NCBI RefSeq assembly: GCF_030463565.1
Contig: NC_134660.1
Span: forward strand, 3,547,501 to 3,611,500
Reading direction: 5' to 3'
Source: Pelecanus crispus
Taxonomy: Eukaryota > Chordata > Aves > Pelecaniformes > Pelecanidae
Length of the DNA: 64,000 bases
The position numbers and the translations under genes are program-made. A model generated the notes under the pieces. That model was not told where the DNA came from, did not search any database, and saw only the letters and a program-made list of their open reading frames with translations. Shown here piece by piece: positions 42,493 through 63,392 of the stretch (positions are counted from its first letter, which is position 1; each line of letters starts with the position of its first letter).

Positions 42493-45400
42493 ATGGCCTC
42501 GCTGCTCAAGGTGGACCCGGAGGTGAAGCTTAAGGTGCGCCCCCCGCGCTGCCCGCCGGGCCGGGCCGGACCGAGCCGGGCTGGGCTGGACCGGACCGGG
42601 CTGGGCTGGGCTGGGCTGGTGCCGGCCCGGGCCTCGGGGCGGGGCGGGCTCGGGGCCGCCCCGGGGGCGCCGCCCGGCCGCTTGGCCCCGGCCGTTGGTC
42701 CTGCGGCTGCCGAGCGCGGCCCGCCCGCCGGGCTCTGCCCCCGCCCCCGCCGCTCCGCGGCTCTGCCGGAGCGCCGGGAGGGCGGGGACGGGGCCGGGGC
42801 TGCTCCGCGGCCGCCCCCGAGCCGTTCCCTGGCGACGGGTGGCCGCTGGCCCGGGCACGGTGCATCTCCCTCCCCGCCCCGTGCCGCAGCCAGCCCGGGC
42901 GGGAGCTGCTCGGTTCGCGGTTCCCCCCGCGCTGCTCCGCGCCTCCCCTCGCACGTCCGGCCCGGCCCGGGCAGGCGAGAGGGGCAGGGAGCTGCCGCTG
43001 GCCGCCCCGGCAGCTGCCGCTCGGCGCTCACGGGCTCTCCCAGCTCCAGGTCGCTTCTCCCGAGGATGAGAGCTGTACCGGGAGAGCTCTGGGGTTGAGG
43101 CTGTAGTCGGGCTCCACGGCCGCAGGGCGCAGCGCTTGGCTTGCGCTGAGCCCTGGTTTTTGAGAGCGGCTCTGAAGCGTTGCTTTTCTCCTTCTGCAGG
43201 TTGACTCCTTCAGGGAGCGGATCACAAGCGAGGTGAGTGTCCCTCTGCCACTGCCCAGAACGTGGTAGCACAGGAAAGAAGCCATTTGGCCATAGCCTTC
43301 TGACAGACTTGATTGCGAGTTGAGCTTCTCCTGGAAGCTCAGCAGTGCTCAAGAGCTTCAGTCGCCAGCTGGAGTGAGGTTATGTAGCCTTATGGCTCTC
43401 CTAGCTGGCATCTTCTCACCTTGGCTTAGCGTGGCGGTCGGCAGCAGGCAGAACTCGTGTTCTCTCCTGTTTCCTGCCTTCGGACAGTTGATTTCCCTCG
43501 TGTTCTTGCCTGTTAGCGGGAACCTTGCAGCGTCGTTTCATGTCAATGTCTGTTCTTTCTCTCTCAGGCTGAAGACCTGGTGGCAAACTTTTTCCCAAAG
43601 AAGCTGTTAGAACTCGATGGGTTCCTTAAGGTAAGGTATACATTGTCCTCTGTATCCTTTTTCATTTTCAAGCAATCCGGTCCCGTGTATTTTCTTGTGC
43701 ATTTCACCTTGTTACAAAGACATGAAGCAGTGGCTGGGTCGCTTGCGTGCATTTGAGTGCTGTTAGCTCTAGAGGGGGTGCTTCCTTTTTCAGTTTTCTT
43801 TGTGCGATCACCACATTTATCTTTCCTACGTATTCGCCAACTTCGGGCCGTCCTTCGCGATGCTGTGGTCTCACAGGGACTCCGGCGTTGCAGATGGTTC
43901 ATAGCTTTGATCGAGTCTGGAGCTGGCACGCTGTTCTTGGGTGGAGGGAGGTCTCATCACAGGCCTGTTGTTAGACTTTTTTTTTTTTCATTCATCCTTA
44001 TTTTATGGTTGGATAAGGGGAAGGTCTGAATCTTTTGTCTTCTCATTATGTTTGGCGTGACGGAATTTGTTAGTTCGTAATTAAATAACAAATCTGCTTT
44101 ATTTTCCAGGAGCCTATCCTGAATATTCATGATCTCACTCAGATCCATTCGGACATGAACCTCCCAGTGCCTGACCCAATTCTTCTCACAAACAGCCATG
44201 ACGGACTGGATGGGGTAAGGTTACTCTCTTGGCTGTGATCCCTACTTTTGTTAATTAAAACTGCATGGCTTGCTCTGTGCTGGAGTAGGATATTCTTATT
44301 TAATAACAGGCTATGGCTCTCCCAAAGGCTTTAGGAATGGGTCTCTCGAGCCTGGGAAGTCTGCTGGAGGTAACACTGTGCTCTGCAGTCCTCCTTTGTT
44401 TTTAAAGAAGGATGCTTAGAAACCAGGAGTGTAGCAGAGGCTGTAAAGTTTTCCTTATTTCCTTTGCAACACTGTTGTAACTTATGACTAGTTTGTGAGT
44501 AAAACATTTTGTATATTTTAGCCAAATATGAAAAAGAGGAAGCTGGAAGACCGCGAAGAGACCTTTCAGGGTAAGAGTCCCCAAGTCTCTTATGCTGCTG
44601 CCTGCCCCCCGAACCAGTGCACCATGCCTTAGGGGAGTGAAATCACGGGAACCCCACTTGCCCTGTCCTGACAGCAGCTGCTGCTCATGCAGGCCTGTCC
44701 CTGCAACCTCTCAGAGCCTGACCTACGGATGGTCTGTTGTGGAGGAGGCAGGTTCCAGCTCTTAGAAGCATCGTTATGACTTCTCTGATAGACATAAGTA
44801 GTACTTGCTTGAGCTTGCCTGCTGACAGAGGCAGCTGATCTCCCTGTAGCTCTGTGCTGAAAGCTCTCCTTGTCTGGACGAAGATACCAGGCTTTGGATT
44901 AAGCTGAGGCAGAAACAGCTCGTATATGTCCATCAGCCAAATCCTTTCTGCCCAGCCTCAGCAGTCTAGAGCTCTTCAGCTTTTGTCTCCGCTCCATGTT
45001 TTCTCTTTTCCTTCCTTGCAGTAATCGCTGTTATCCCATGTGAAATTTCCCCTTCCATACAGGTTAGCTATAGCCTGGCCCAGTGTCCGCTTAGTAGGGA
45101 GAGAAGACGCTCGGGTAGACCTTGGGTCTGATCCCCTGGCACAGCCGTTCCTACGCGTTGCTGATGCAAGGTGGTGTTCTCCTCTGCCGCTAGGTACCAA
45201 AGTGTTCATGATGCCCAATGGGATGCTGAAGAGCAACCAGCAGCTGGTGGACATCATTGAGAAAGTGAAGCCAGAAATCAGGCTGCTTATTGAGAAGTGT
45301 AATACGGTGGGTATGAGCGCTGGAGCGAGTGGAGACAGTAGGATGCTTTTACTCCTGGAGAGGCAAAGCTTCTCTGAGTGGAAGGAGCAGGCCCCTCTGT

Positions 45401-53658: not shown

Positions 53659-55228
53659 ATGCACATGAAAACCGTGCTCATCCTCCTCCTTCTGGCCTTA
53701 GCCACGATATTTGCTTTGGTCTGTGTGCTGCTGACCAGAGGACGGGGCCCCAGCACCTGCCAGCACCAGCCCCTGGAGCAGGAGGCCACCGACGACGGCC
53801 AGAGCCTGGTCTTTGCCGATCTGACGCCCGAAGAGATGCTGCAAGTGGTGCGGTACCTGCAGGGAAACCTCGGGGTGCAGCTGGTTGACGCCTCGCGTGC
53901 AAAGCCCTCCGACAACTGCATCGCCTCCATCGACGTGCAGGTCCCCGCCAAGGCAGAGGTGCTGCGGTTCCTGGATGGTGGGGGGCCTCGCCCCCCCCGG
54001 GAGGCGCTGGCTGTGCTGTACTTTGGGAACCAGCCAGACCCCAACGTCACCGAGTACGTGGTGGGTCCGCTGCCGACACCGGTGTATCACCGGGACGTCA
54101 CGGTGCAGAAGTACAGGGGGAAGGTGCCGTACCACCGCAGACCAGCACTGGCTGTTGAATACAAACAGATTGCAGGGTTTTTAAAAAGCCAAGTGTTCCC
54201 TGCAGCTCCATCTTTCATGCGTCAAGTAATGGAGTATGATGGAGCCAGCCTAGCAGCCCTGACAGCCGCTCCCCGTGGATTCCAGTCTGGAGATCGAATC
54301 ACCTGGTTCGTTTTGTTTCAGAACGTGAGCGGGTTCTTCGTGCACCCGGTGGGGCTGGAGGTGCTGGTGGACCACAGCAGCCTGGACATCTCCCGGTGGG
54401 CGGTGAGCAGGGTCTTCTACAACGGGCAGTACTACAGGGACATGGTTCAGCTGGAGAGCGCCTACGTGCAGGGTCGCATCAGCGTGGAGAAGGTGAGGAA
54501 GGCGCCGCGGGATGGGGACTTCTCATCCATGAAGCCCCGAGCACCTTCGGCTGCGCTGTTCCCTTTGCAGTATGAGCCCCAGGGTCCCCGCTACAGCGTC
54601 AGGAACAACCACGTCCTCTTCCAGGCCTGGAGCTTTGCCTTTGGGATGAGTGTGAACACGGGCTTGCGCCTGTTTGACATCCGACACAAGGGGGAGAGGG
54701 TTGCCTATGAAATCAGTGTCCAAGAAGCATTGTCAGTGTATGGCTCCAACTGCCCCGGAGGAATGTCAACGAGGTACATGGATGGGAGCTTTGGCATCGG
54801 GCGCCACACCTCCCCCTTGGTGCGAGGGGTCGACTGCCCCTATTTAGCAACGTACCTGGATGTGCACTACCTTGCCCATTCCCAGGCCTCTGGAATTAGT
54901 AAAAATGCCGTCTGCATTTTTGAGCAGAACCTGGGCTCCCCTCTGAGGCGCCACTACTCCAACTTGCAGTCGCTCTACTACTACGGGGGGCTGGTCAACT
55001 CTGCGCTGGTCGTTCGCTCCATTGCGACCGTGGGCAACTATGACTACGTGTGGGACTTCATCTTCTACCAGAACGGGGCCATTGAAGGCAAGGTCCAGGC
55101 CACGGGGTACATGAGCTCCTCCTTTCTCCATGGGGATGGTCTGAGATACGGCAACAGGGTTTGGGAGCACACGCTGGGTACGATACACACCCATTTCATC
55201 AACTATAAAGTGGACTTGGATGTGGGAG
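53659..55228 (+). CDS. AOC2/AOC3-type copper amine oxidase, first exon A, active site intact
   Basis: One open exon of 1570 bases encodes about 523 residues, the same part that exon 1 covers in human AOC2 and AOC3, and ends at a GT donor (GGAG|GTAGGT) in phase 1. The protein begins with a type II signal anchor (KTVLILLLLALATIFALVCV), then the D2-D3 domains and most of the catalytic domain. It keeps the catalytic-base Asp ([10 protein letters not shown]), the TPQ precursor tyrosine in TVGNYDYVWD and the copper pair HTH in LGTIHTHF. Exons 2-4, which supply the third copper His and the C-terminus, do not follow before first exon B. Read through the donor, it would stop at 55302. It is either a truncated duplicate or an alternative first exon for the exons at 61919-63392. 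The TVGNYDY context is closer to AOC2 than to AOC3. Confidence 0.85.
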
Positions 55229-57119
55229 GTAGGTCTGGGTCTTCCTTTAATGTCTGCCATTACACCGGTAAACCCCAGAGCTTTGGGGAGATTGCCTCCT
55301 AGTCTGTAGAATCCCTAATATTTGTCATCAGAACTCTGCTTTTTCACTCTCCTAACCTCTTCTTTCATTACAAAGTTATTTTTCTATATATAAAATAGTC
55401 TGTTAAGGTCACAGAGTTGAAGGCAGTGTGAATTGTCTGGGAGTTCTGTGTTCAGCCCAGGGAAAGTATGAAAGTTCGCAGCTGGAAAATGTTTGTGTTT
55501 CCTTGAGGCCTCACGTCTGGCACGATGAGTGTTGCCATAGGCATGGCCAGGCAGACAGGGAGACACAGCCCTGTCTGCAGGGCTGAAGGTGCGAGCCTGC
55601 TCTTGCTGCGCCTGATGCTGGTCCTAGCACTCCTCCTAACTTGGGAAAATCCTTTTTGTATCTCGACTGCCCAGCGTAAAGCCGGGCAGCTGGACTGGTG
55701 TTCTGCAGGACGGAGCTTGTGCAGCTCTATCCCTGCTCCTCTTTTGAGGAAACACTTGTAAGTTGGATCCTGAGTCTCAGGCTGCAAAGCCGCTGCAGTG
55801 AGCCAGTGAATTTCCCGGCTTCGGCACAGAGTCACGGTTTCTGGCAGTGGATCCCTGCAGAGGGTTATTTGAGTCCAGGAGCAGTTCCTTCTGCACCAGC
55901 TGGCAGGCTGAGCAGCAAAGTGCTGGCGTCCACCCTGGGAGGCACAAAGATGCTCAGCCTGAAAGGACAGCTTTGCTTCCCCTTAAAGGCCATTCCGGTT
56001 ACTGCAGTCCGGGAAGGTGCAAGGGTAGTGGTGGTGCTGGGGGCACGGACCGGCAGCATTAGGTGTCTGTTACTGAAACCTGCTCCTGTAAAAGGTAAGG
56101 GAAAAAAATGTTTTACATCTGCAGAGGACCAAAGAGATTGCTGGTAGGCAGTAGACTGCATCTGTACCAGCCCAGGAGAAATGCAGCTCCAGTAACCCGT
56201 GCTGTCTCCTGGATTGTGGGGAGGAATCGGAGAACTATGTACGTCAAGCTCCAGCTGACTCCGGTGCAAGCGTTCAGTCCCGGCACGTGTCCGCTCTTGT
56301 ACCTGCCTGAGATGCAGTGGTTTGTGTGGCCTTAAAAGGTGCTGCTGCTATCATTATGGTCAAAAACAGGGCTGATACTGCTTCCCTTTTTGTAAGCAAG
56401 TCTTGAAAATGTGCTAAAATACAGTTCCTGCGTGGTGGCAAGGTTCTTTTCCATGACTGCTGTGCCCCTCAGCCCCCTGCTCTGTTTACAGCCCCTCAGC
56501 CCTGGCAGCTGCAAAATGCTCTTGAAGAGAGTTGTGTAAAATCCCAGACTTGTTCCCCTTAGCGAGGGAGGGGAGCGCTGTCCCGAGTGGCGGGGTTTGA
56601 GGCCACGCGGGGTGCTCGAGAGGCGCCCGGCAGGATCCCCGCCTTCTGAGCGCAGGGAAGGCAAAACTGCAGCACAGCAAAAATGGGTCATCTCCCACAC
56701 AGGTTTCTTGGATCCTGATCTGAGGCTGGCGTGGGACCTGCAGGGAAAAAAGGGCAATTATTCCCTGGCTGGAAGTGAGAATGAAAACATAAATTCCTAG
56801 ATTAACATGGTCGTGACAGGAGTAAATTGATCCAGTGCTGTAGTGGTTTCAGCCCCTGCCCAGCCCCTCCTGCCTGTGCCCCAAACTGTCCCCACCAGGA
56901 GGGTGTGAAGTAGCCCACGATCTCTGGAAAGCCGTCCTCGGCTGTCGGTGATGCATCGCTGCCGCCTCGCGTGGGGCTGGGCGCAGCGGGGCCAGCCTTG
57001 CAGAAGCTGGTGGCCACGCAGGAGCAGCCACCTCGCGCCGTGGTGGGGTGGTCCCGGTGCCCCGGCCCCCGGCTCGCAGCCTCCGAAGGGCTGCTCGCTG
57101 CTCTCCTCGCCAGGGAAGG
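55229..57119. other. Spacer between AOC first exon A and the solo LTR
   Basis: I searched this stretch for AOC exons 2-4 (the conserved [16 protein letters not shown] and [11 protein letters not shown] regions) and found none. About 30 bases after the exon A donor resemble the start of the exon B intron, then similarity ends. No other gene is recognisable. Confidence 0.55.
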
Positions 57120-57686
57120 TGTCGTGGTTCAGCCCCAGCCAGCAGCTCAGCACCACGCAGCCGCTCGCTCACTCCCCCTGCCCCGATGGGGTGGGGGAGA
57201 GAATCGGAGGAGTAAGAGTGAGAAACACTCCTGGGGTGAGATAAGAACAGTTTAATAATTGGAAGAAAGTAAAATAGTAATGATAATAGTAACAATACAA
57301 TAATAATAATAATAACAATATACAAAACAAGTGATGCACAACGCAATTGCTCACCACCCGCCGACCGATACCCAGACAGTTCCTGAGCAGCGATCGCTGC
57401 TCCCCGGCCAACCCCCCCCCAGTTTCTATACTGAGCATGATGTTACGTGGTATGGAATGGCCCTTTGGGCAGTTTGCATCAACTATTCTGGCTGTGCCCC
57501 CTCCCAGCTTCTTGTGCGCCTGGCAGAGCATGGGAAGCTGAAAAGTCCTTGACTAGCATAAGCAGTACTTAGCAACAACTAAAACATCAGTGTGTTATCA
57601 ACATTCTTCTCCTACTAAATCCAAAACACAGCACTGTGCCTGCTACTAGGAAGAAAATTAACTCTATCCCAGCTGAAACCAGGACA
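57120..57686 (-). mobile_element. Solo LTR of an avian ERVL-type endogenous retrovirus
   Basis: A 567-base LTR with TG...CA ends and inverted termini (TGTCGTGGTT at one end, AACCAGGACA at the other) is flanked by a perfect 5-base target duplication GAAGG at 57115-57119 and 57687-57691. In the minus orientation it reads TGTCCTGGTTTCAGCTGGGA and contains an ATTAAA signal, as in the bird ERVL LTRs I know. No internal retroviral sequence remains, so it arose by LTR-LTR recombination. The identical duplications and clean ends suggest a moderately young insertion. It contains a short TAA-type microsatellite. Confidence 0.92.
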
Positions 57687-57691
57687 GAAGG

Positions 57692-58560
57692 TCAATCGTG
57701 TGGTCAGGAATACTGAACAGTTTCCCGACAGTAACCATTTCTGTCCATGACAGCTCTTGTCCACGCATCCTGCCCGCTGGAGTGGGGTTGGGATGGCTGA
57801 ATGGGGACAGATGTGTCCTGTTAGTCATCCTGCAGCCGCTGCTCTTCCTGGCGCAGCCGCTCCAGGTGCTGCCCGTCGCTTGCAGTTGCTGCCAGGGGTT
57901 TGGCAAGTGCTGCCCGTTCTCACCAGGGAGCTTCCTTTCATCTCGGCAGCTGGAGCCAGGCTGGAGCTGCCAGGTCCTTTCCCTCAGGGTTGGGAGGGAC
58001 TTGCAGGCGATAGAGAGTGGCGACGGGGAGAACAGGCACGTGGAGGTGCTGGGGAGCCGGCGGGTCTTGGGCTCTCCTGGAGCACCAGCCTAGACCGGCC
58101 CTGCAGGGGAGCGGGGCTGCTCCCAGGGCACTGGGGTGCAGAAGGAGCGGGGCTGGCCGAGCCTGCCCCTGCGGCATCGCTGCGCTCCCACATGAGACGG
58201 GACAGGGTGTCCTGGGAGACGCTGGGAGAAGCAAAGGCCCCTTGGGCAGACCAAGGACGGGGCTCTTCATGGTGTCACCCTGCAGCGGAGAAACCCATCA
58301 GCAGCTTGGGGAGTGAGTCAGGCACCGGCTCCCCAGCTGGCTTCCTCGGTGTGTCTGGGGTGGGGAGGAAACAGGCTGAACTGGCCAGGACCTGTGATCT
58401 CCTCTCCGAGTCCCATGTGAGCTCCAGGCTCCCTCCCCACCTCGCAAGCGACGCCTTTACGCCCACAGTTTGCAAATGAATTAAAAGCCTGGTCTGCGGG
58501 TGAGGGACGTATTCTGGATGCTGCAGCTAAACCCCACGCACTGTCTCTGCACTCGGAAAG
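57692..58560. other. Spacer and putative promoter of AOC first exon B
   Basis: No AOC exon 2-4 sequence and no other gene is visible. A TATA-like AATTAAAAG lies near 58479, about 80 bases before the exon B start. The 5' flanks of exons A and B do not resemble each other. Confidence 0.4.
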
Positions 58561-61500
58561 ATGAACCCCAAACTTCCCTACGTTCTCCTGGCTGGGGCTG
58601 CGGCGATAATCTTCATTCTCTCCTGCATGCTGCTGAGCAGGGGGAGGCGATCACCCAGCTGTGAATCCCAGCCCCGCATCCTGGAGAAGACGGGACCCAC
58701 GAGCCAGAGCCTGGTCTTTGCCGATCTGACGCCCGAAGAGATGCTGCAAGTGGTGCGGTACCTGCAGGGAAACCTCGGGGTGCGGCTGGTTGACGCCTCG
58801 TGTGCAAAGCCCTCCGACAACTGCATCGCCTCCGTCGATGTGCAGGTCCCCGCCAAGGCAGAGGTGCTGCGGTTCCTGGATGGTGGGGGGCCTCGCCCCC
58901 CCCGGGAGGCGCTGGCTGTGCTGTACTTTGGGAACCAGCCAGACCCCAACGTCACCGAGTACGTGGTGGGTCCGCTGCCGACGCCGGTGTATCACCGGGA
59001 CGTCACGGTGCAGAAGTACAGGGGGAAGGTGCCGTACCACCGCAGACCGATGCTGGGCAGTGAGTACGAGCAGGTGGGAGTGTTCTTACAGATGGTGGCA
59101 TTTGCTGCAGCCCCAACCTTCCTGAAAGAAGTGTTTGAGTACGACGGCACCAACGTGGCATTTCAGACCACGGCCCCTCACGGGTTTCAGTCTGGAGACC
59201 GTAAGTCCTGGTTCATCGTGTTTCAGAACGTGAGCGGGTTCTTCGTGCACCCGGTGGGGCTGGAGGTGCTGGTGGACCACAGCAGCCTGGACATCTCCCG
59301 GTGGGCGGTGAGCAGGGTCTTCTACAACGGGCAGTACTACAGGGACATGGTTCAGCTGGAGAGCGCCTACGTGCAGGGTCGCATCAGCGTGGAGAAGGTG
59401 AGGAAGGCGCCGCGGGATGGGGACTTCTCATCCATGAAGCCCCGAGCACCTTCGGCTGCGCTGTTCCCTTTGCAGTATGAGCCCCAGGGTCCCCGCTACA
59501 GCGTCAGGAACAACCACGTCCTCTTCCAGGCCTGGAGCTTTGCCTTTGGGATGAGTGTGAACACGGGCCTGCGCCTGTTTGACATCCGACACAAGGGGGA
59601 GAGGGTTGCCTATGAAATCAGTGTCCAAGAAGCATTGTCAGTGTATGGCTCCAACTGCCCTGGAGGAATGTCAACGAGGTACATGGATGGGAGCTTTGGC
59701 ATCGGGCGCCACACTTCCCCCTTGGTGCGAGGGGTTGACTGCCCATACTCAGCCACCTACGTCGACACACACTCTCTGTCTGAGACCCTCAGCCCCAGTA
59801 AGAGAAAGGCTTCCCTCTGCATTTTTGAGCAGAACCTGGGCTCCCCTCTGAGGCGCCACTACTCCAACTTGCAGTCGCTCTACTACGGGGGGCTGGTCAA
59901 CTCTGCACTGGTCGTTCGCTCCATTGCGACCGTGGGCAACCACGACTACGTGTGGGACTTCATCTTCTACCAGAACGGGGCCATTGAAGGCAAGGTCCAG
60001 GCCACGGGGTACACAAGCTCCTCCTTTCTCCATGGGGATGGTCTGAGATACGGCAACAGGGTTTGGGAGCACACACTGGGTACGATACGCACTCATTTCA
60101 TCAACTATAAAGTGGACTTGGACGTGGGAGGTAGGTCTGGGTCTTGTCTCTCCTTTGTGCCCTCCCCGAGTACTTTTAGACTCCCCAAAATTGACTTCTT
60201 TTTTGGTCCTTATACAGATTTTTCTTTCCCTGTGTGGGGTAGGATGGTGTGCTGACACAGAGCCGCTTCCCTTCTGTTTTTCGAGCAGTGAAAGGTGTTG
60301 TCCTACAGGGAGAGGTTCCCCCTCTGTCCCTCGCAGTTACCCCTAAGCATGTGCAGAGCTGCGGCTTCCTGGGCTGGGTAACGCCAGCACTGCCGTGTGC
60401 CCAGCCCGTGCCCTAATGGGACACATCCTTCCCCTCCTGCCTGGGCAGACAGACCCAGCCCCAACCTTGCCCCATTGGCCTCAACGCTTCCGGGGCTCTG
60501 TAGAAGTTGGGATTTTTCCCTCCGCCGCCCTGCCCCTGTCCTGAGCCCCAAACGATAGTAGGAGTCGATCAAGCTGGTTTGTTGGGATGTGGTTTCCAGC
60601 TCACATTCCTAATTCCTACAGCTTTGTCGAGCTGTTCCTGCTGCTCGTGTGCGAGTGGGGCTGGCAGCTGCCCTCTCCGTAGGGCTGCAGGCACAGCAGG
60701 CAGACGCTGGGCTGGCGGCCAGCTCTGAGCTTTGGGCTGTGCTGCATTTTGCCAGGGGTACAAGGGGTCCTTTGCTCACAGCAGCAACGGGAACGTCAGC
60801 TGCAGTTTTCTAGATCTTCCCCTACCATTTATGCCACAAATCTGTCCTCACATGCCTGCTGAAATTGCATTTGCTGCATGCTCCTGCCATCTACTAAAAA
60901 TTGCCCTATTTCCTTTTAATTGGGAAACACAAATTTAAAGACTGTTTCATGCAGTTTTAGGATGAGTTTTGAGTACCTAAGTAAAAATGGAGGACTGCAA
61001 AAATGTGAGAACAGGGAAAAGGCAGATGAAATCAGAGTGTCACTGCTACCACTGGAAGAGGAGGTGTGGGGTTAGAAGTTTTGTTCACATCAGAAAAGGG
61101 AAGAAAATGAGCACGGTGGCGGTTGCTGGGCGTGGATCCTCTTCCATGGGGCTCGGGGTCTGGCGCTGCCCTCGATGGCAGCCCCGGCGCTCAGGCCCAA
61201 GGCGCTGCTCAAACCTTCCAGGATGGCCAGAGGTTCAGCTCTGAAATGGCCCTTACGCCAGCTGGAAACTCGCGTGGGGCCGAGGGGAGCGGAGCACGGG
61301 AGGGCGTTTCACCATACACCTCGAGCGCTCTCAGCCAGATCTTTGCCATCTTGTCCCCAGATTTATTTGCTCTTGTGCCCCTCCTGTTGCTCTGAGCCTC
61401 TGGCTCATGACTCTTCTTTGTGGAAAGACCTGAACTGCATAGCACTGCTCCAGTTTTGTGATGTGCAAATGTCTTGGAGCCTGGGCTCTTTCTAGTGCTT

Positions 61501-63392
61501 TCCAGCTCACAGGATGCATGCTGATGAGCACAAACACAGTACCTGGGCCATCAGGCGCTTGAGTTAATTAGACTGTGCTTGCACGGGGAAGCAAACCTGT
61601 TCTTCTGCACTGGGACAAGGTTCCTGTCTTGTCTGCACAGAGAGGGAGAGTCCCCATGGATGGTGGTGTCTGCCACAGAATGGTGTTGCCTGGGTCAGAC
61701 AAACGTACAGTCATACAGCCACAGATAAACGTACACGACGTACAGTCACGCTGCCGTGGAGCTGCGGAGCGGGAACTGCTCTCACAGGCAGGAACCGGTG
61801 CTTGGAGCGTGGGGTATGGGAAGGGAGGATGGGGAGAGCAAGCTCTGGCTGCAGTGATGTCCGTAGGGAACAGGGGACTGTGGGGATGCTCCTCAGCGAC
61901 TTTGCTTTGGCTTCGCAGGGGTGAAGAACTCCCTGGTGGCCCACGACATGGCGTTTGAGATGGCGCGGGCTCCCTGGAGCCCGGAGCAGCAGATAGAGCG
62001 GCCACGACTCACCAAGAAAGTCCTGGACACGGAGGACCAGGCTGCCTTCCGGCTCCAGTCGAAGATGCCCAGATACATCTACTTTGCGGCCAACAGCAAA
62101 AACAAGTGGGGCCACCAGCGTGGTTACAGGATCCAGATCACCAGTTTTGCGGGGGACCATGTCCCCGAAGCCAGCTCCATGGAGAGGGCCATCAGCTGGG
62201 CAAGGTCAGGCTGCTCTGACTGGGACGGCAGGTTCTCAGAGATGCCCCCAGCCCCGCCGGCTGGGGAGGCATGGCGTGGGTGTTCCTTGGTGGGGAGGCA
62301 CAAGGCAGACGCTCTCCTGGGCTGGGGTTACTCCGTGGGAGCAGGCGTGTGCTCTGCGGACTCTCTGGGGAGCTGGCTTTTCGCTCTGCCCTGCCCCAGG
62401 GGGCTGCTCCCGTCTCTTTTCTTGTCCTCAGGTACCAGCTGGCCGTCACCCGACGGAAGGAGGAGGAGCCCACCAGCACCAGCATCTACAACCAGAACGA
62501 CCCCTGGACGCCCACCGTCGCCTTCGCCAACTTCATCAACAACGAGACCATCACCAACGAGGTGAGCTGGGGTACCTGGGGCTGGAGCTGTGATACCCCA
62601 CCCCGGGCTGAGCGGGAGCCCCAGAGCTGCCCCAGGGGCTGAGTGACCCTGGCGTCGCCCGCAGGACAGCGGGCTCAGCCGGGAGAGCAGCAGCCCCGGG
62701 GAATGAGGAAAGCGTGTTTGAGTATCCCCTTTTCTGTGTATCTGCTTGGTGCTTCGATCAGAGCATGTAGATCAGAGTGCAGAGCAGAAGCTCGTTTCTC
62801 CCTATGGAGAAATGCTGGCAAAACATCAGGAAAATCTCTGCGAGGCTGGGGCTTGGCCGTGGGGACCAGGGCAAGGGCCCTTCTGCTGGGTGGACGTCTG
62901 CAGCTGTGGCTGTGGGCAGCTCTTTGGAGGAGGGAAGGGATCATTCCCAGGAGGGGGAGCTTGGCATGTGGGAACGTGGCCAAGCTGGTTCCCCATGGAG
63001 GTCCTCTCCTGCTCTTCTGTAACTTTCCGTGGCCCCTGCACAGATTTTGGTCGCTCCCGCTCCAGGCTTCTGAAATAACCATGGTCTTGTGGCTCCTCCC
63101 TGCCTAGGACCTGGTTGCCTGGATAACCGCTGGTTTCCTTCACATCCCGCACTCGGAGGATATTCCCAACACTGTGACGGTGGGAAACTCGGTCGGCTTT
63201 CTCCTGAGACCCTACAACTACTATGACCTGGACCCCTCCATATACTCGCACGATGGTGTGTTTTTCACCAGCGAGCAGGACTTCACGGCGTGTGAAATCA
63301 ACCCTATCGCATGCCTGCCCAAAACTGCCTCTTGTTTGCCAAACTTCCCCCCGTTCACCTATGATGGTTTCCAAAATATGAGCAGGCTTTAA
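58561..63392 (+). CDS. AOC2/AOC3-type copper amine oxidase B, complete but with active-site substitutions
   Basis: Four coding exons, 58561-60130, 61919-62204, 62432-62561 and 63108-63392, encode 756 aa, the length of human AOC2 (AOC3 has 763). The family are dimeric, membrane-anchored ectoenzymes that oxidise primary amines to aldehyde, H2O2 and ammonia with a TPQ cofactor and copper. There is a signal anchor ([17 protein letters not shown]), the catalytic-base region [10 protein letters not shown], and in exon 4 the third copper His in [18 protein letters not shown]. However, the TPQ tyrosine is His ([10 protein letters not shown], codon 59941-59943) and the first copper His is Arg (LGTIRTHF), so this product should not form the cofactor or bind copper normally. 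Long parts of exon 1 are nearly identical to first exon A; two short blocks differ strongly. Exons 2-4 look fully conserved. Confidence 0.93.
60131..61918 (+). other. AOC B intron 1, 1.8 kb
   Basis: GT donor at 60131 and CAG acceptor ending at 61918. No further AOC-like exon or transposon is apparent. This acceptor is the only one in the window that could also receive first exon A. Confidence 0.6.

Follow-up and report, generated by a model that had tools for sequence, protein, structure and literature searches.

In Pelecanus crispus, the AOC2 position is very probably occupied by a single gene with two alternative first exons (A and B) and one constant set of exons 2–4, from which an active oxidase and also, in many birds, a pseudoenzyme would be made. 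The locus lies in a 64-kb stretch of DNA without any N (C18:3547501-3611500, here called the window), and its features are collected in Table 1. Each first exon would bring its own start codon, its own anchor in the membrane and 523 of the 756 aa, some 69% of the protein, and would be spliced separately to the common exons 2–4, A skipping B and both transcripts being made. The exon A product would be a catalytically complete membrane amine oxidase, while the exon B product, in the pelican and many other birds, would be a pseudoenzyme without the TPQ-precursor tyrosine and with one copper ligand gone, presumably with a non-catalytic role. Most of A and B is continually homogenised by gene conversion, leaving distinct islands in the anchor, the channel and a surface segment.

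Table 1. Features of the two-start AOC locus, in window coordinates.
Feature	Position	Strand	Remarks
Exon A	53659..55228	+	alternative first exon, 523 codons + 1 nt, catalytically complete by sequence
Exon A island 1	53659..53798	+	membrane anchor; dS 1.5 vs B; near-identical to AOC3
Exon A island 2	54144..54321	+	N3/D3-domain stretch with substrate-channel positions; dS 1.9
Optional internal intron, exon A	54493..54624	+	in-frame, 132 nt, GT-AG; compare 711-aa A-type isoforms
Exon A island 3	54839..54907	+	includes human Ser419 position; dS 2.3
Exon A catalytic codons	TPQ Tyr 55039-55041; Cu-ligand His 55186-55188	+	
Possible A-only terminal exon (rival partner)	55749..55801	+	NTCKLDPESQAAKPLQ*; open stretch behind AG, resembles the end of Gavia stellata P0111
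Exon B	58561..60130	+	alternative first exon, 523 codons + 1 nt
Exon B island 2	59049..59226	+	
Optional internal intron, exon B	59398..59529	+	in-frame, 132 nt, GT-AG; spliced out in P. crispus isoform X3
Exon B island 3	59744..59812	+	
Exon B lost residues	TPQ Tyr to His 59941-59943; Cu-ligand His to Arg 60088-60090	+	
Shared exon 2	61919..62204	+	in-silico splicing, tblastn, genome search
Shared exon 3	62432..62561	+	in-silico splicing, tblastn, genome search
Shared exon 4 and stop	63108..63392	+	third Cu-ligand motif GFLHIPH inside

Exons A and B are each 1570 nt long, remain open, end in phase 1 and share an identical GGAG/GTAGGT donor; boundaries, lengths, phase, donor and frames are all as the sequence-only reading had given them. 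When either is joined in silico to exons 2–4, a protein of 756 aa with a single terminal stop results. As in genes with variable first exons, the two are similar and in tandem (1397 of 1581 aligned columns identical), and both contain the same four copper amine oxidase Pfam matches; the top PDB match of exon A is human VAP-1/AOC3. The 132-nt optional introns are absent from many annotated bird isoforms (711/712 aa), and their removal would take 44 aa out of the stretch that separates the N3 domain from the enzyme domain. Pelican exon A carries an extra in-frame tyrosine codon (around 54974–54988), reading SLYYYGG where B, like the other A-type proteins compared with it, reads SLYYGG; this codon is part of the Arm I region, close to human residues 448–452.

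That only one set of exons 2–4 exists had been stated earlier, and tblastn searches of the window agree: exons 2, 3 and 4 each give one strong match, the runners-up having E-values of 0.31, 0.69 and 2.5, and no second set or remnant is recognisable in the window, including the interval between A and B. Nucleotide self-comparison of this interval, of intron 1 and of the region before A reveals no gene repeat outside the exons. In the genome assembly (1.314 Gb, 310 contigs), counts from the best candidates, which are lower bounds, give at least four matches to exon 1 of A (A, B, AOC3 and an AOC1-like one on contig C105) and at least three sets of exons 2–4 (the shared one, that of the downstream AOC3 and the AOC1-like set on C105). 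A separate set elsewhere in the assembly, for which a search had been proposed, is thus not present among these best candidates, and window and genome searches both find the one common constant set of a variable-first-exon gene. Exon 1 of the downstream AOC3, also of 1570 nt and with exons of its own, is located just past the window (window-equivalent 64995–66564; L005:995-2564; C18 match 3612495–3614060).

The catalytic residues, numbered as in human AOC3 (checked), differ between the two first exons. In exon A, Asp386, Tyr471, His520 and His522 are all present, and the product spliced to exons 2–4 has the N2, N3 and enzyme domains, the TPQ tyrosine, Asp386 and the three histidine ligands of a copper amine oxidase. 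Exon B has a histidine at position 471 and an arginine at the copper-ligand position 520. Its product retains the copper amine oxidase domains without the TPQ tyrosine and His520; judged from its sequence, it is a copper amine oxidase homologue by descent and probably not a competent enzyme, and it should not form TPQ.

Rows of related proteins were classed as A, B or C according to whether their island 2 is nearest to that of pelican or Calonectris, a class which for reptiles does not indicate orthology (the crocodile second-type rows land in class A); among the rows are several isoforms from one species. Positions 471, 520 and 522 are kept in 27 of 29 bird A-type rows, the exceptions (Accipiter X8 and Charadrius) being hybrid models with a B-like second half, and in all 28 class C (AOC3) rows. 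At least one of the three is lost in 26 of 38 bird B-type rows. Counted by species, with two Falco A-locus rows set aside, this is the case for 22 of the 31 with a B-type row (471 lost in 18, 520 in 21), while all three are kept in the B-type rows of nine: Athene, Strigops, Catharus, two Strix, Vidua, Grallaria, Apteryx and Tinamus. The substitutions vary, with H or Q at 471 and R, Q or C at 520. Outside birds, all nine class-B rows keep the three residues, and the second-type rows of lizard, crocodile and turtle are catalytically intact. There are no galliform B-type rows among the matches listed. Eleven further rows lack island 2 and have no class; at the three positions, seven read H/R/H, three Y/H/H and one H/H/H. 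Since the complete active site is back in several lineages, the dead state of B is not strictly required; B would more likely be a retained non-catalytic isoform than a relic.

When exons A and B are aligned, it is clear that they form a gene-conversion mosaic, in which homogenised blocks alternate with three distinct islands. The dS between A and B is 0.024, 0.035 and 0.079 in the three blocks, compared with 1.5, 1.9 and 2.3 in the N-terminal, second and third islands, where omega, as an average over both lineages, is 0.42, 0.18 and 0.25, respectively. The longest identical run is 350 nt, a length reached in none of 10000 shuffles (largest 108). The introns adjoining A and B are unlike past their first bases. 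By alignment, human VAP-1 channel positions 173, 176, 177, 180 and 210–212, as listed in passages of PMC7144023, map into island 2, and Ser419 into island 3 (passages of PMC7144023 and PMC5794975). The downstream AOC3 exon 1 is 97–100% identical to A per 20-codon bin over codons 1–160 and divergent afterwards, so conversion links all three first exons.

Block residues differing between A and B number 7 of 383 in pelican, 3 of 339 in Mycteria, 4 of 339 in Heliangelus, 8 of 308 in Accipiter, 11 of 302 in Haliaeetus albicilla and 12 of 383 in Falco. Position 520 differs in all six species and position 471 in five; in the stork Mycteria, these two make up two of the three differences. Between birds, the B islands are about as conserved as the A islands: for B of pelican and Rissa, 56 of 60 residues are the same in island 2 and 25 of 25 in island 3, and for A of pelican and Mycteria, 57 of 60 and 23 of 25. 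Island 3 has been converted in Anas, Phalacrocorax and Heliangelus. The A locus of Falco naumanni (P0133, P0132) combines a B-like anchor and island 2 with an A-like island 3 and an intact active site, and is a natural A/B recombinant.

The mosaic alters one argument made previously for sharing, namely that the active site of exon A is conserved. Conversion with B has homogenised the blocks that hold most of this region, and conservation there does not count as independent evidence. Better grounds are that Tyr471 and His520 remain in A though the near-identical B has lost both, and that the unconverted islands of A are conserved. Were A free to lose its function, it would tolerate conversion from the dead B; to work, A in turn needs exons 2–4, in which the third copper ligand lies. 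Together with the annotated isoforms, this need makes sharing of the exons the best explanation. The sequence-only reading had missed that B, not A, has lost active-site residues, as well as the conversion mosaic and the extra tyrosine codon of pelican exon A.

The annotated isoforms are predicted database entries; some are strange A/B hybrids, to which the identical blocks could give rise. Isoform X3 of P. crispus (P0119), 549 aa long, is identical from residue 164 onward to exon B of the window followed by exons 2–4, joined as predicted, with 44 internal aa skipped. The comparison with other birds that had been suggested reveals A- and B-type first exons with the same carboxy-terminus annotated within one species: identical carboxy-termini (233/233) stand behind different first exons in Accipiter (five isoforms), Mycteria (X5/X3) and Heliangelus (X3/X1), and likewise in the lizards Anolis and Elgaria, where exon 1 identity between X1 and X2 is only 294/527 and 328/523, respectively. 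The A-type protein of Alligator mississippiensis (P0059) and the second-type protein of A. sinensis (P0085) agree in 231 of 233 carboxy-terminal residues and in 339 of 526 of exon 1, and Podarcis rows have 230 of 233 in common at the carboxy-terminus. In models from the turtle Lepidochelys (1281 aa) and the skink Lerista (1295 aa), two exon 1s run into one carboxy-terminus.

AOC2-type exons stand at the end of 26 of 30 listed A-type bird proteins, two of the 26 being A/B hybrids. The A models of Gavia and Haliaeetus albicilla are without exons 2–4, that of Haliaeetus albicilla ending at exon 1, and models starting with A in Geospiza and Erithacus have a different last part. In Gavia stellata P0111 (539 aa), exon A is closed by a short terminal exon; at the Falco naumanni A locus, the model reads into the intron, and both its rows are tallied as B-type because island 2 is B-like. 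For B, the Athene X4 and Anser models join it to an AOC3-type last exon, and those of Apteryx rowi and Empidonax have no matching exon 4. Separate splicing of each first exon thus fits the annotated isoforms in several species, but not the Gavia or Falco models. The UGT1A-like design proposed from the letters alone, in which A skips B to reach the shared exons, finds support in the identical carboxy-termini, in the endings of most A-type bird proteins and in the lack of a fourth exon set among the best genome candidates. Annotation and logic together make the sharing well supported, if not proven, and a 55228–61919 junction is predicted. Against it count the predicted nature of the isoforms, the deviating A models of Gavia, Falco, Haliaeetus, Geospiza and Erithacus, and the falcon A, which took B-like islands 1 and 2.

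That A is the sole working first exon, and B a duplicate decaying within the first intron of the A gene, its frame kept open by conversion, is unlikely. The loss of two catalytic residues, by substitutions that vary among birds, would suit decay, but the islands specific to B, intact and conserved between pelican and Rissa, are not upheld by conversion from A, and the A–B island omega, averaged over both lineages, is 0.18–0.42. In addition, B-type models spliced to exons 2–4 are annotated in many birds, the pelican included, and the second-type rows of lizard, crocodile and turtle have intact catalytic residues. We also consider it distinctly improbable that A is expressed with a terminal exon of its own (55749–55801), or by read-through into the intron, as a product of about 540 aa with neither exons 2–4 nor the third copper ligand. 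Such forms are annotated in Gavia stellata and Falco naumanni, and the pelican has matching open stretches, yet most A-type bird models use AOC2-type exons 2–4, and a truncated product would not need the Tyr471, His520 and His522 that A retains; it could exist as a minor form.

If the assembly hid a second set of exons 2–4, A and B would be two complete genes of the ordinary kind found in mammals. Assemblies are known to collapse near-identical sequence, and gene conversion could keep two sets alike, but this alternative is highly improbable: contig C18 is 9.3 Mb long, with no N in the stretches inspected, the introns beside A and B are dissimilar, and the one-set layout is implied also by lizard and turtle isoform models whose exon 1s differ by up to 44%. 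One gene with two alternative first exons and one constant exon set remains the preferred reading.

Trees of blocks and islands were built separately; a neighbour-joining style reading of the whole exon 1 was dropped, as blocks and islands conflict. In the blocks, sequences group by species (pelican A with pelican B, Heliangelus A with B), while in the islands they group by A or B type. The block trees reject A as a single clade (p-AU 5.5e-64) and also bird B (1.1e-10), the latter being the cleaner value since the A set there includes lizards. In the island tree of labelled rows, A and bird B each occupy one side of a branch (100/100), although with 85 columns the bootstrap is unsettled. In the free island tree, the A-types, alligator and lizards do not form one clade, but holding them together is not rejected (p-AU 0.194). 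Deep orthology of A across birds and reptiles is likely; for B across reptiles the case is weaker, with FastTree uniting only the crocodile and lizard second types (0.77). Pelodiscus P0069 and Tiliqua P0086, which have no clean exon boundary, were left out of the FastTree run.

Human AOC2 and AOC3 (VAP-1) are separate four-exon genes, each with its own exons 2–4; the likeness to the pelican locus lies in the homologous protein, the domain order and the neighbour PSME3. A PSME3-like exon is found upstream of the AOC locus and adjoining it (window about 45170–45320), as are a kinase segment and a RAMP gene; PSME3 next to the AOC genes, and the order PSME3, kinase segment, RAMP, are presumably those of human. 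Between A and B, positions 57130–57680 form a repeat with at least 39 other near full-length genome copies among the best candidates (93–96% identity), which resembles a solo LTR of a bird endogenous retrovirus.

The tandem similar first exons and single downstream constant set resemble UGT1 and GCNT2. In passages of PMC1885805, which defines the UGT1/GCNT2/PCDH kind, the variable exon carries the substrate-recognition domain (UGT1) or the anchor (GCNT2), and little gene conversion is described in either. Unlike these, the AOC locus is dominated by conversion outside three islands, and one of its variable exons appears to encode a catalytically dead product. The clustered protocadherins, in the same passages, have variable first exons, constant exons and strong conversion between neighbours, but they encode adhesion proteins and have over a dozen variable exons, whereas the AOC locus is an enzyme gene with two. 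Plant clade I CuAOs without the TPQ motif T/S-X1-X2-N-Y-D resemble the exon B product, with the difference that, in passages of PMC12058724, they are separate genes, whereas exon B is one of two alternative starts of an active gene. That paper covers AOC phylogeny, the word exon being absent from its main text, and passages of PMC2566581 treat local duplication in mammals. Searches of open-licence PMC text brought up no description of this two-first-exon AOC layout.

If this reading is true, a single gene supplies birds and reptiles with more than one AOC2 protein, and AOC gene counts from exons 2–4 or from whole-gene predictions would mislead. We suggest tentatively that the choice of first exon lets one vertebrate gene alternate between an active oxidase and a conserved pseudoenzyme with the same fold, and that this layout is ancestral to living reptiles and birds. 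As the enzymes are dimers in which an arm reaches the partner's channel, mixed A/B dimers, or an adhesion form free of catalysis, could tune activity. Selection against conversion becomes measurable here, in an exon that is homogenised while its substrate-channel segment stays distinct. According to passages of PMC6306676, the enzyme-dead Y471F form of the mammalian protein is expressed, has an unaltered structure and supports fewer leukocyte contacts; B would be its natural equivalent and offer a direct comparison, and a natural dead isoform could separate the catalytic from the adhesion roles of the VAP-1 family.
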